From contig NC_005125.1 of the NCBI RefSeq assembly GCF_000011385.1, forward strand, positions 1,798,001-1,862,000: a stretch of DNA of 64,000 nt, given 5' to 3'. Of the stretch, positions 3,586 through 62,753 are shown one piece after another. The stretch's first letter is position 1; each line of letters begins with the position of its first letter. This stretch comes from Gloeobacter violaceus PCC 7421. GTDB taxonomy: Bacteria > Cyanobacteriota > Cyanobacteriia > Gloeobacterales > Gloeobacteraceae. A model generated the notes under the pieces. It worked only from the letters and a program-made list of their open reading frames with translations, searched no databases and was not told the origin of the DNA. Both the position numbers and the translations under genes were made by a program.

Positions 3586-3717
3586 ATGATCGGCTACGAG
3601 GCCCAGTGGGAGCGAACGTGCAAGGAAGTGCCAACTCGATCTCCGAAGGCTTGCCTGGAGCATACCCAGCCAATGATCAAATTCCAGCCCAACGGCAAAA
3701 AACACGAAACGTGGTGA
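3586..3717 (+). CDS. Small ORF of unknown status (43 aa)
   Basis: An ATG-started 43-codon frame rich in charged residues (ends NGKKHETW). I do not recognise it and see no convincing ribosome-binding site. It lies in a stretch of decayed sequence between the hydrolase and a damaged toxin-antitoxin pair, so it may equally be a gene fragment. Confidence 0.2.
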   Translation: MIGYEAQWERTCKEVPTRSPKACLEHTQPMIKFQPNGKKHETW

Positions 3718-3789
3718 GAGCGGAACGCAGGCACCGAGCCTTTTCTGGCACCCGTGTGGCACTCGGTTGCGGCTTCGCTCTCAGTGGGC

Positions 3790-3903
3790 CTATTTGGCGC
3801 CGTCGGTATGGAGGACTTTGCGGTTGAGGGCGTGCCGATACCAGTCGTTGGTACCGGTGAACTATGCCAGAGCAGCTTTGTCGAGCAGCGCGGCGAAGGC
3901 GCG
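3790..3903 (-). pseudogene. DUF6876-like gene remnant with two stop codons
   Basis: On the minus strand this stretch reads ALLDKAALA-stop-FTGTNDWYRHALNRKVLHTDGAK-stop. The FTGT..WYRH.LNR.VL.TDGAKY signature resembles the N-terminus of DUF6876-type proteins as I remember them. Both stops sit where a single change would restore the expected residue (CAG to TAG, TAT/TAC to TAG). Nothing recognisable continues afterwards. The rest of 3565-4064 holds no gene I can support. Confidence 0.4.
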
Positions 3904-54615: not shown

Positions 54616-55625
54616 CCCTGCGCGTGTTCGTGACGGGCGGCACCGGCTTCGTGGGAGCCAACCTCGTGCGCTTGCTGCTCACCGAAGGTTACAGCGTGCG
54701 CGCCCTGGTGCGTGAACCTGCGAAGGCACAAGATCTGGCGGCCCTCGGTGCCGAAGTGGTAGCCGGAGATCTGGGCAGTCGCGCTCTGGCTGGGCAGATG
54801 GCGGGCTGCCGGGCGCTCTTTCACGTCGCCGCCCACTACAGCTTGCTGCAGGCCGATCGCGAGCGGCTCTGGCAATCGAACGTGCTCGGAACCCGCAACG
54901 TGCTCGCGGCAGCCCGCGAGGCAGGGGTAGAGCGGACGGTCTACACCTCATCGGTGGCGGCCATCGGCGTCAAAAGCCCCCGCGCCGATGAAAACCACCA
55001 GAGCCCACCGGACAAACTCGTGGGCGTCTACAAACAGTCGAAATATTGGGCGGAGCAGGAAGCACGTCGGGCCGCTGCCCGCGGCCAGGATGTGGTGATC
55101 GTCAACCCGACCGCGCCAGTGGGTCCCTTCGACAGCAAACCGACGCCGACCGGCGACATCGTGTTGCGCTTCTTGCGCCGCCAGATGCCCTTTTATCTGG
55201 AGACCGGCCTCAACTTCGTCCACGTGCGCGACGTGGTCCAGGGGCACCTGGCTGCCCTGGAGCGGGGCCGCTCAGGGGAGCGCTACATCCTCGGACACCG
55301 AGATTTGTCTTTCAAAGCGCTGCTCGACACGCTGGCGGAGGTGACCGGCATACCAGCCCCACAGATGGCTGTTCCCGATTGGCTGCCCCTGGGAGTGGCC
55401 TGGATCGACGAGCAGCTGCTCTCGCCCTTGCTCGGCCGCCCCCCCAGCGTGCCCATCGACGGCGTGCGCATGGCCGCCCAGCCGATGTACTACGACGCCT
55501 CGAAGGCCGTGCGCGAACTGGGGCTGCCCCAGACCCCCGTCCGGGAAGCGCTCGTCGATGCCGTAGACTGGTTTAGAAAGAACGGATACATCGGCAACGG
55601 GGGGGGATTCCGGCATGGCGGTTAG
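54612..55625 (+). CDS. hpnA: Hopanoid-associated sugar epimerase HpnA
   Basis: 337-residue extended short-chain dehydrogenase. The NAD motif is [18 protein letters not shown], and the active-site Tyr-Lys is in [23 protein letters not shown] and [17 protein letters not shown] are typical of HpnA. The family clusters with hopanoid genes and is thought to process the sugar side chain. The start overlaps the RND gene (ATGA) and its end overlaps hpnH by 11 bp. Confidence 0.9.
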
Positions 55626-56634
55626 TCTCAAACAAGCGTTCGAAGTCGGAAAGTATTTGATTTCCCAGCGTCTCGCGGGCCGCGAGCGCTTCCCGCTGGT
55701 GTTGATGCTCGAGCCGCTGTTTCGCTGCAATTTGGCTTGCCCAGGCTGCGGCAAGATTCAGCACCCGGGCGAGATTTTGCGGCGCAACCTGACGCCTGAG
55801 GAGTGCTCTCGGGCGGTGGAGGAGTGCGGCGCTCCGATCGTCACCATCCCGGGAGGCGAACCGCTGCTGCACCCGCAGATCGACCAGATTGTCGAGGGGC
55901 TGGTCGACCGCGGCAAGTTCGTCTATCTGTGCACCAACGCCATCTTGCTCGAAAAAAATCTTGACAAATTCACACCCTCCGATTATTTCAGCTTCAGTGT
56001 GCATCTCGACGGTTTGCGCGAGGAGCACGACCAGGCGGTAGACCGCGAGGGCGTCTTCGATATCGCCATGCGGGCCATCAAAGCGGCAAAGGCGCGCGGC
56101 TTCCGGGTGACCACCAACACGACCATCTTCAACAACGCCGATCCGCAGCGGGTGCGGGAATTTTTCGATTTTCTGGGCGGACTCGACATCGACGGCATGA
56201 TGGTCTCGCCCGGCTACAGCTACGAGTGGGCGCCCGATCAGGAGCACTTTTTGCAGCGCGATCAGACCCGAGCACTTTTTCGCGAGATTCTTGCTCCCTA
56301 CCGTTCGGGGGAGGCGCGCTGGAACTTCAATCACAATCCGCTGTTTCTCGATTTTCTCGAAGGGCTCAAAGATTACGAGTGCACCCCCTGGGGAATGCCC
56401 AGCTACAGCGTGCTGGGCTGGCAGAAACCCTGCTATCTGCTCAACGAAGGTCACTACGCCACCTGGCAGGAACTGCTCGACAACACCCGCTGGGAGGATT
56501 ACGGACATGCCAGCGGCAACCCCAAGTGCCGCGACTGCATGGTCCACTGCGGCTATGAGCAGACTGCCGCCATCGACGCGATGGAAATCGCCAACATCCC
56601 GCGGGTGCTTGCCAGCGTCATCACCGGCCGCTGA
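55615..56634 (+). CDS. hpnH: Hopanoid radical SAM protein HpnH (adenosylhopane synthase)
   Basis: 339 residues. The radical SAM cluster motif is CNLACPGC, followed by [14 protein letters not shown] and SFSVHLDGL. The C-terminal [11 protein letters not shown] Cys group is characteristic of HpnH. It adds an adenosyl group to diploptene, making the precursor of extended C35 hopanoids. Cotranscribed with hpnA and the RND pump. The squalene-hopene cyclase is not in this window. Confidence 0.94.
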
Positions 56635-56640
56635 CGGTCG

Positions 56641-58113
56641 ATGATCCGCTCGCTGGTCTGGTTTCGCAAGGGTTTGCGACTACACGACAATCCGGCATTA
56701 CTAGATGCAGCCCGGGACGCTGCGCGGCTCTACCCGCTGTTTATTGTCGATCCGTGGTTTGTGAACCCAGAGCGGGTCGGTGTCAACCGGATGCGCTTTT
56801 TGCTTGAAAGTCTGGGGGAGATTGACGGCAACCTTCGCCGACTTGGCTCGCGCCTGATTGTTCTGCAGGGCAGACCTCAGGAAGTGCTTGAGCGCGTACT
56901 TTCACGTTGGCAAATCGGCAGACTTTGCTTCGAGCGGGACACCGAGCCCTACGCCCGCAGGCGCGACGAAGCGATCCGCTCGATGGCCGAGCGCGTCGGG
57001 GTGCGGGTAATTTCCCCCACCGCCCACACCCTCTACGACCCCGATGAGCTTATCGAGTTGGGCCGTGGGAAAGTTCCCACCACCTACGGCGCCTTCGGGC
57101 GGTTGGCGGCAAAATTGGGCGAACCGGACGCCCCCGTGGCTTCTCCGTCGCACTTGCCGCCGCCAGGAGAATTGGACGCGGACTATGGCATCCCGACCCT
57201 GGCGGAGTTGGGCTACCCTGATCCCGAGTGCCCGTCCAGGGGGATCATCCCACCGGGAGGTGAAGGAGAAGGGCTGCGGCGCCTGCACGTCTACCTATCC
57301 GACCGGCAGCGATCGGCCGGATTTGCCAAACCCGACACCGACCCCACCGCTTTCGATCCGCCCTCTACCACCGCCCTGGGAGCGCATCTCAAATTCGGAT
57401 GCCTCTCAGCCAGAACATTTTATGCCGAGGTCCAGAAAGTCTACCGGGAGGTGGGCGAGCATACCGAGCCGCCAATGTCTCTCATTGGCCAGATCCTCTG
57501 GCGCGAATTTTTCTACACCGTGGGCTACGCGACCCCGAACTACGACCGCATCGAAGGTAACCCCGTGTGCCGCCAGATTCCCTGGGACGACAATCCCGAA
57601 TACCTGGCCGCCTGGAGCGAGGCGCGCACGGGATTCCCGTGGATCGACGCCGCGATGACCCAGCTGCGCACCGAAGGCTGGCTGCACCACCTGAGCCGCC
57701 ACGCGGTTGCCTGCTTTCTCACGCGCGGGGATCTATGGGTGAGTTGGGAAAAAGGCCAGGCCGTCTTCGAGCGCTTGCTGCTCGATCAAGACTGGAGCCT
57801 CAACGCGAGTAACTGGATGTGGCTTTCAGCGAGCGCTTTTTTTAACGCCTACTACCGGGTCTACAGCCCGATCAGCTTTGCCAAAAAGTACGACCCCGAG
57901 GGCCGCTACGTCCGCCGCTACCTGCCGAAGCTAGCCCGGGTACCCGCCGAATTTATCTACGAACCCTGGAGGGCGCCCCTGTTGGTCCAGAAGCAGGCGG
58001 GCTGCGTCGTGGGCCGCGACTATCCGGATCCCATCGTCGATCACGAACAGGCCAAGGCCTGCAACCTTGAACGGATGCGACTGGCCTACGAGCAGAACGC
58101 CAAAGGTGGCTGA
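56641..58113 (+). CDS. (6-4) photolyase / animal-cryptochrome-like flavoprotein
   Basis: 490 residues: an N-terminal photolyase domain (SLVWFRKGLRLHDNPALL, LFIVDPWF) and a C-terminal FAD domain. The sequence resembles eukaryotic (6-4) photolyases more than bacterial CPD enzymes: GNPVCRQIPWDDNPE, RTGFPWIDAAMTQLRTEGW, HHLSRHAVACFLTRGDLW, DWSLNASNWMWLSASAFF and YVRRYLPKL. His350 and His354 occupy the two His positions needed for (6-4) repair. Asn388 faces the flavin N5, as in photolyases. It starts 6 bp after hpnH. Damage specificity is inferred. Confidence 0.85.
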   Translation: MIRSLVWFRKGLRLHDNPALLDAARDAARLYPLFIVDPWFVNPERVGVNRMRFLLESLGEIDGNLRRLGSRLIVLQGRPQEVLERVLSRWQIGRLCFERDTEPYARRRDEAIRSMAERVGVRVISPTAHTLYDPDELIELGRGKVPTTYGAFGRLAAKLGEPDAPVASPSHLPPPGELDADYGIPTLAELGYPDPECPSRGIIPPGGEGEGLRRLHVYLSDRQRSAGFAKPDTDPTAFDPPSTTALGAHLKFGCLSARTFYAEVQKVYREVGEHTEPPMSLIGQILWREFFYTVGYATPNYDRIEGNPVCRQIPWDDNPEYLAAWSEARTGFPWIDAAMTQLRTEGWLHHLSRHAVACFLTRGDLWVSWEKGQAVFERLLLDQDWSLNASNWMWLSASAFFNAYYRVYSPISFAKKYDPEGRYVRRYLPKLARVPAEFIYEPWRAPLLVQKQAGCVVGRDYPDPIVDHEQAKACNLERMRLAYEQNAKGG

Positions 58114-61020: not shown

Positions 61021-61083
61021 CGAAGCCCTTCCGGTCGTACCGGCACAATGAGCTAATATATCCCCGTGCAACTGGGTTACACC

Positions 61084-61839
61084 ATGAATTTTTCCGGAGC
61101 CATGCTTTTCCGGTTGGTCGCCTCGGCCCTCGCCGCCCTCGTTTTTTTGTTCCAGGCGTCTTTCGCCTTTGCCCTTTCTGAAGATCAGCTTGTCGCCAAG
61201 CTCAACCTTGTCCCGGTCTTCACCATCGCCGACGCCAAGAACACCCCGCTGCTGCTGGTTCCCAAAAACGACAAGAACACGGCGGTCTTGAACTTCTACC
61301 TGGACCCGGCCCTGGCCAAACAGGCGATGCAGGTGGTAAAGACCCAGAACCCCGACAAGAACAAGACCTACCGGGTAGCAATCACCAGCCTCGGCCAGGC
61401 CTACAAAGTCGCCAAAGACGAACAAAAGAAACAGAGCGCCAAGGTGCGCTTTCAGTTTCTGAGCAGTCCCAAAAGCGTCGAGTATGCTACCGAGTTCTTC
61501 CGCAAAAAGGATCCCAACTTCAAGATGTTTCAAGGGGTGCCGGTGTTCTTTCTTTCCGGTGGCTCGGGCAACGGTATTCTGACGCTCAAGCGCGACGGTC
61601 AGGAGTACCTGCCGATGTTTTTCTCGGAGGTGGACCTGCAGCGTAACCTGCTTGAGCTGCGTAAAGTGCGCTCCGATCTGCCCAAGAACCTCTCCGTCGA
61701 AGCGACCACCCTCGATTCGATCGTCGGCACGATATTGAACGGCAAAAACGACAACGACTCGCAGAAGATCACTTTCGTTCCGGCCAAAGACGCCCTCGAT
61801 TATGCCAAGACCGTCCAGAAGGACGCCAAACCCAAATAG
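61084..61839 (+). CDS. Tic22-like periplasmic protein, copy 1
   Basis: About 251 residues from ATG 61084 (GTG 61066 is possible). A signal peptide ends near FAFA. The mature chain has the Tic22 pattern: KLNLVPVFTIADAKNTPLLLV, AVLNFYLDPALAKQAMQVV, YRVAITSLGQAYKVA, GVPVFFLSG and QEYLPMFFSEVDLQRNLLEL. Cyanobacterial Tic22 proteins work in the periplasm or thylakoid lumen in outer-membrane biogenesis. It is followed by a clear paralogue. Confidence 0.88.
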   Translation: MNFSGAMLFRLVASALAALVFLFQASFAFALSEDQLVAKLNLVPVFTIADAKNTPLLLVPKNDKNTAVLNFYLDPALAKQAMQVVKTQNPDKNKTYRVAITSLGQAYKVAKDEQKKQSAKVRFQFLSSPKSVEYATEFFRKKDPNFKMFQGVPVFFLSGGSGNGILTLKRDGQEYLPMFFSEVDLQRNLLELRKVRSDLPKNLSVEATTLDSIVGTILNGKNDNDSQKITFVPAKDALDYAKTVQKDAKPK

Positions 61840-61934: not shown

Positions 61935-62753
61935 ATGCAACAACGTTCACTGCAGAGAGTCGCCGCGTTGGGCTTCGCCGCCTTCCTGACTTCGCTGATG
62001 ACCTGCACGCCCGCCCGGGCGATCCCCGAGGACGAGGTGATCAAAAAGCTCGATTCCGTCCCGGTCTTCTTGATCGCCGATACCAAGGGCAACCCCCTCA
62101 TCGTCACCGTTAAAGACGACAAGACAAAAAAGGACACCTCCATCCTCTGGCTGTTCCTGGACCAGAACGCGGCCAAGGAGGCCTACGGCAATCTCCAAAA
62201 GAGCAACGACAAAGCCGCCAAAGAATCGCAAATCGGTGTGATTAGCCTCGGGCAAGCCTTTAAGGCGGCCAAAGAAGAACAGAAGAAAAAAGAGAACAAA
62301 GTCAATTTCCAATTCCAATCCGACCCCAAGACGGTCACCGCCGCCCTTGATCTGGCCAAGAAGGTCGACCCCAAGACCAAGGACTTCCCGGGCATCCCGG
62401 TTTTCTACGCCATGGGTACCGACGAGAAGACCAAGGCCAAAGGTTTTGTCACCTTCGAAAAGGACAACAAGCAGTACGTGCCGCTGTTCTTCGACAAAGA
62501 CGATCTCGAACGCAACGTCGATCAGATCAAGCGCTCCAAGCCGGAACTGGCCAAGCAGATGAATATCGAGGTCGCTCCCCTCGACGCGGTGGTGGGCAAC
62601 ATGCTCGAAGGCAAGAACGACACCGAATTCAACAAGCTGACCTTCGTGCCTTCATTCAAGGCGGTGGAGTACGTGCAGTCGCTGAAGAAGGCTGCCGCTC
62701 CGGGTGCGGCCCCGGCTTCGGTGACCCCGGCTTCTTCCGCCCCGAAGCCGTAG
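61935..62753 (+). CDS. Tic22-like periplasmic protein, copy 2
   Basis: 272 residues with a signal peptide (cleavage near ARAIP). It shares with copy 1 the order KLDSVPVFLIADTKGNPLIV, LWLFLDQNAAKEAY, IGVISLGQAFKAAKEEQKKK, GIPVFYAMG and KQYVPLFFDKDDLERNVDQI. The tail is Ala/Pro-rich. The two genes are tandem duplicates, 95 bp apart on the same strand. prmC follows 10 bp later. Confidence 0.9.
   Translation: MQQRSLQRVAALGFAAFLTSLMTCTPARAIPEDEVIKKLDSVPVFLIADTKGNPLIVTVKDDKTKKDTSILWLFLDQNAAKEAYGNLQKSNDKAAKESQIGVISLGQAFKAAKEEQKKKENKVNFQFQSDPKTVTAALDLAKKVDPKTKDFPGIPVFYAMGTDEKTKAKGFVTFEKDNKQYVPLFFDKDDLERNVDQIKRSKPELAKQMNIEVAPLDAVVGNMLEGKNDTEFNKLTFVPSFKAVEYVQSLKKAAAPGAAPASVTPASSAPKP

Follow-up and report, generated by a model that had tools for sequence, protein, structure and literature searches.

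The known hosts of photolyases of the eukaryotic (6-4) type are otherwise plants, algae and animals, and the occurrence of one of them in Gloeobacter, a thylakoid-less cyanobacterium, is an oddity for a bacterium. Lucas-Lledo and Lynch (2009), as summarised in PMC7560933, placed the G. violaceus protein in the (6-4)/CRY clade and proposed green algae as the donor. Mei and Dvornyk (2015; PMC4564169) had it as the bacterial (6-4) sequence of their set, and in the searches published there a gene of this type was found, among bacteria, only in Gloeobacter. The histidine, the tryptophan tetrad and the GC content of the protein and its gene were described in 2020, including a W(x)SW motif and a tryptophan at the fourth position (PMC7560933). 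The protein is also counted among the few bacterial members of its family (PMC9498864), and PMC9426592, where the absence of FeS-BCP from G. violaceus was already noted, termed it a 'plant-like (6-4) photolyase'. With its placement under discussion from 2009 and its residues from 2020 (PMC4564169, PMC7560933, PMC9426592, PMC9498864), the call made in the preliminary description of this gene, a eukaryote-type (6-4) photolyase homologue in a cyanobacterium, is right but was known before. The basic observation being published, the gain of the present analysis lies in distribution and context.

Among the described systems, the nearest solved relative is CraCRY, the animal-like cryptochrome of Chlamydomonas reinhardtii (PDB 6fn0 and 5zm0), which has in common with the Gloeobacter protein the pair of repair histidines, the flavin-facing asparagine and the tryptophan chain. 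The two differ in that CraCRY is a light sensor too and that the Gloeobacter protein has no C-terminal extension. The (6-4) photolyases of Arabidopsis (PDB 3fy4) and Drosophila (PDB 2wb2) share the (6-4) active-site pattern at 53-55% identity and differ in their hosts, which are eukaryotes. The usual bacterial (6-4) photolyase is FeS-BCP, the prokaryotic type represented by PhrB and CryB (PDB 4dja and 3zxs). Although the presumed lesion is the same, the cyanobacterial members of FeS-BCP are 22-26% identical to the Gloeobacter protein, a very long branch lies between them in the tree, and the Pfam search of the Gloeobacter protein gave no match to PF04244 (DPRP domain).

Class assignment and active site

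The gene is an intact open reading frame in the ORF listing of the window (the whole stretch of 64,000 nucleotides analysed here), with an ATG start and a product of 490 amino acids (Table 1). The source genome is a single contig of 4,659,019 bases. Pfam detected DNA_photolyase with 160 bits and FAD_binding_7 with 250 bits. None of the NCBIfam models was above its own cut-off; TIGR02765 (CRY-DASH) reached 204 bits against a cut-off of 317, which argues against membership of CRY-DASH. The product is evidently WP_011141747.1 / NP_924695 of G. violaceus, because the GC content of the gene (62.25%) equals the 62.3% published for WP_011141747.1 (PMC7560933). The tetrad is also equal, the identities to animal and Chlamydomonas proteins are similar, and no difference was found between the two. 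The orthologue of G. kilaueensis is WP_023172734.1 (PMC4564169, PMC7560933).

Table 1 Features of the photolyase locus. Positions are those of the window unless residues of the protein are given.
Feature	Position	Strand	Basis
hpnH (adenosyl-hopene transferase), upstream neighbour	55615..56634	+	NCBIfam TIGR03470, 535 bits
Eukaryote-type (6-4) photolyase gene	56641..58113	+	ORF, Pfam, PDB homologues, tree
Photolyase alpha/beta domain	residues 4-161		
FAD domain	residues 282-480		
Trp315, third Trp of electron-transfer chain (= CraCRY W322)	57583..57585	+	alignment
Repair histidines H350 and H354 (codons 350-354, H-L-S-R-H; = CraCRY H357/H361)	57688..57702	+	alignment
Trp366-x-x-Trp369: W366 fourth (Tyr373 in CraCRY), W369 second of tetrad (= CraCRY W376)	57736..57747	+	
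Asn388, faces flavin N5 (= CraCRY N395)	57802..57804	+	alignment
Trp392, flavin-proximal Trp (= CraCRY W399)	57814..57816	+	alignment

We compared the protein to all PDB chains with phmmer. The scores were 647 bits for CraCRY, 582 for the Arabidopsis (6-4) photolyase, 569 for mammalian CRY1 and 548 for the Drosophila (6-4) photolyase. Much lower scores were obtained for Anacystis class I (199), Synechocystis DASH (170) and E. coli photolyase (155), with plant CRY within the range of about 155-199. The corresponding pairwise identities of the first four are 58.1% (CraCRY, across the whole photolyase core), 54.5%, 50.3% and 52.6%, whereas the other non-FeS classes, cyanobacterial ones included, are 27-37% identical. 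This closeness to (6-4)/CRY proteins is far beyond chance. The preliminary description had put the motifs closest to animal (6-4) photolyases and cryptochromes and not to cyanobacterial CPD photolyases or DASH proteins, which agrees with the values of 50-58% versus 27-37% identity and 548-647 versus 155-200 bits.

A maximum likelihood tree was computed with IQ-TREE from 48 proteins, comprising six Gloeobacterales and five eukaryotic (6-4)/CRY sequences together with class I, class III/plant CRY, DASH and FeS-BCP. The Drosophila sequences were identical, letter for letter, to the PDB chains, the other references were taken from PDB alignments, and the orthologue of one draft genome (G387) was entered as its two pieces joined end to end. 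Gloeobacterales and eukaryotic (6-4)/CRY proteins formed one clade (95/98), to which none of the class I, class III/plant CRY, DASH or FeS-BCP proteins belonged. The support for the (6-4)/CRY clade holding the window protein was 100/100 once the long rows (Drosophila CRY, Thermus, E. coli, FeS-BCP) were dropped. The phylogeny that had been proposed as a check thus placed the protein in the eukaryotic (6-4)/animal-CRY clade and not inside class I or FeS-BCP.

The alignment confirmed the two repair histidines (350 and 354) and the flavin-facing Asn388 that had been read from the sequence. The tryptophan tetrad is complete (W392, W369, W315, W366); at the fourth position animal proteins also have Trp, whereas CraCRY has Tyr. 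The three residues H350, H354 and N388 and the tetrad are kept in all six of the six Gloeobacterales sequences. Asn388 is not discriminating by itself, an Asn being common to other photolyase classes too. His354 aligns with a Met of E. coli photolyase that contacts the lesion, so that the class I residue is not found here. Two paralogues in the same genome, a class I CPD photolyase (C1:835971) and a CRY-DASH (C1:890439), have the superfamily domains in common with the window protein; they are about 33-34% identical to it and have Asn and Met (class I) or Asn and Gln (DASH) at the two histidine positions. A cyanobacterial CPD photolyase (class I/III) or CRY-DASH merely resembling (6-4) enzymes would have identical Pfam domains, but such a reading is hardly conceivable, as it is contradicted by the placement in the tree, by His-His in place of Asn-Met or Asn-Gln and by the separate class I and DASH genes that the genome already holds. 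The tree and the residues rule out a class I, class III, DASH, plant CRY or FeS-BCP identity of the window protein. An AlphaFold model computed from five orthologues was of no use (mean pLDDT 36, low alignment depth), and with solved structures of relatives at 53-58% identity a model is not needed.

Distribution and repair complement in Gloeobacterales

The gene was found in 7 of the 9 Gloeobacterales genomes; four of these are Gloeobacter, two more belong to the family of Gloeobacter and one to a different family. The copy in G392 stops at the end of its contig (contig 3,816 bases; match 3591-3815). In the draft genome G387 the locus (L068, contig C169, 325-1775) is split over two overlapping frames by a single frameshift that follows closely on the codon of the second repair histidine; the split reflects either an assembly fault or a pseudogene. 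Both the eukaryote-type (6-4) photolyase and FeS-BCP are missing from two members of the order, G386 and G393. Outside Gloeobacterales there was no match above 240 bits or better than E 1e-75 in two sets of cyanobacterial genomes (386 and 390, with overlap), and a contig scan across genomes with patterns from one protein gave matches in two Gloeobacterales only. No eukaryote-type relative was found in the viral contigs and phages searched; the plasmids searched held distant photolyases only, with identity of about 31% or less.

FeS-BCP (PF04244) was present in 14 of the 18 other cyanobacteria sampled and in none of the nine Gloeobacterales, the source genome included. This absence from 9/9 genomes, together with the distribution of the eukaryote-type gene in 7/9, is what the present analysis adds to the published record. 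An order lacking the normal bacterial (6-4) photolyase has the eukaryotic type, which looks like non-orthologous replacement. The source genome has three PF03441 genes, the eukaryote-type (6-4) gene and the class I and CRY-DASH paralogues. With the enzymes encoded by these two paralogues the genome already provides for CPD repair, and the simplest reading is that the window protein performs the (6-4) repair of the cell.

We therefore consider it highly probable that the window protein, which belongs to the eukaryotic (6-4)/animal-cryptochrome clade and is resident in Gloeobacterales, acts as a (6-4) photolyase, repairing the (6-4) pyrimidine photoproducts that UV light induces. The conserved residues alone are no proof of repair, because non-repairing cryptochromes of the clade such as mammalian CRY1 keep both histidines, and the substrate of the Gloeobacter enzyme is here a prediction from sequence. 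We found no assay of its activity in the literature searched. By analogy to characterised relatives, FAD would be reduced to FADH- by electron transfer along W366-W315-W369-W392, and blue or UV-A light, partly gathered by 8-HDF, would excite the FADH-. The excited FADH- would give an electron to the flipped-out lesion, a proton from the repair histidines would serve the return of the OH or NH2 group to the 5' base, and the electron would go back to the flavin at the end. The predicted antenna is probably 8-HDF; cofH, for 8-HDF synthesis, was above the cut-off in 8 of the 9 Gloeobacterales, including the source genome. A small, bacterial, extension-free predicted (6-4) photolyase with a full tryptophan tetrad would be suitable as a model enzyme.

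As a separate observation, some 5 kb separate cofH of the source genome (G000:C1:829552-830595) from the class I CPD photolyase (835971-837374), the would-be user of the chromophore.

Gene neighbourhood and a possible role in light signalling

The end of hpnH is 6 nt from the ATG of the photolyase gene, and hpnA (TIGR03466) precedes hpnH in the window. At the corresponding loci of two sister Gloeobacter genomes (L034:5188-7918 and L070:10224-12955), about 3 kb lie between hpnH and the photolyase gene instead of 6 nt. This interval holds a lactonase-like beta-propeller, an ECF sigma factor and an RskA-type anti-sigma factor, and the anti-sigma gene stops about 80 nt before the photolyase gene. 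There is no close copy of either the sigma or the anti-sigma gene in the window genome (best 52% and 36%, respectively). In G388, ES-bin-141 and G387, none of the neighbour genes of the window was found beside the photolyase gene. A link with the hopanoid genes (hpnA, hpnH) was considered and rejected, given the 3 kb in the sister strains and the other neighbours beyond those strains; the hopanoid neighbourhood is a local feature.

Elsewhere in the window, two adjacent genes (61066-61839 and 61935-62753) are related to each other with 39% identity and are, as judged by eye, probably Tic22-like.

The protein might act as a blue-light receptor (cryptochrome) instead of, or besides, a repair enzyme, and we consider this improbable. 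Its nearest solved relative CraCRY is bifunctional, combining gene regulation and repair according to PMC10551024, and a sigma and anti-sigma factor precede the gene in the two sister genomes. However, the protein stops a few residues beyond the photolyase core (core homology reaches residue 486-488 of 490) and has no C-terminal extension of the kind seen in signalling cryptochromes, the sigma/anti-sigma cassette is absent from the window genome, the neighbours of the gene are not conserved beyond the closest relatives, and the set of repair residues is full. For control by stress or light, the sigma and anti-sigma genes of the sister strains offer a lead and not evidence. Of the label 'animal cryptochrome homologue' in the preliminary description, the membership of the clade holds, but the signalling extension is missing.

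Origin of the gene

The photolyase has very few bacterial counterparts in the family that gave rise to the animal clock cryptochromes, and so it bears on whether eukaryotes received this family from bacteria or bacteria from eukaryotes. The gene would have passed, in one direction or the other, between an ancestor of Gloeobacterales and an early lineage of eukaryotes. The preliminary description had allowed for both a bacterial relative of the animal CRY lineage and a gene taken from a eukaryote, and the trees and AU tests presented here are compatible with either. Its composition and codon use make a recent transfer unlikely.

Transfer from a eukaryote to Gloeobacterales has, in our estimation, an even chance. 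The gene is confined to Gloeobacterales in the cyanobacterial samples while the clade is widespread in eukaryotes, and the highest identity (58%) is to a green algal protein. In the AU test, a grouping of Gloeobacterales with Chlamydomonas and Arabidopsis (p 0.406) or with Chlamydomonas (CraCRY) alone (p 0.137) was not rejected. Against this direction, the best tree, free of long branches, sets Gloeobacterales outside the four eukaryotic sequences, which group together (94/85, not starred) with Gloeobacterales as their sister. The composition of the gene is also native (GC 62.3% versus 61.5% for the window), which argues only against recent transfer.

The opposite direction, in which an ancestral bacterium gave the gene to early eukaryotes and Gloeobacterales hold the last known copy, is compatible with the (6-4) photolyase reading and we regard it as plausible, if somewhat short of an even chance. 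A bacterial contribution to eukaryotes is the direction favoured by PMC7560933. The monophyly of the eukaryotic sequences with Gloeobacterales as sister points the same way, as do the age of the gene in the order, where it is present in two families, and the full tryptophan tetrad. This direction needs loss in all other sampled cyanobacteria, the sister position carries no star, the AU tests do not reject nesting, and the tree had five eukaryotic sequences only. A further proposal makes Gloeobacterales the one bacterial sister lineage of the eukaryotic (6-4)/animal-CRY family that still survives. The animal clock cryptochromes would then descend from a gene that early eukaryotes had received from a bacterium, and Gloeobacter would not have borrowed an algal gene. 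We regard this reading, which was already proposed in PMC7560933, as less likely than not.

Within the order, the rooted gene tree groups the copy of G388 (L038), which is of the same genus, with those of other genera and another family and not with the trio of the window (97/96). A species-like grouping for this copy was not rejected (AU p 0.14).
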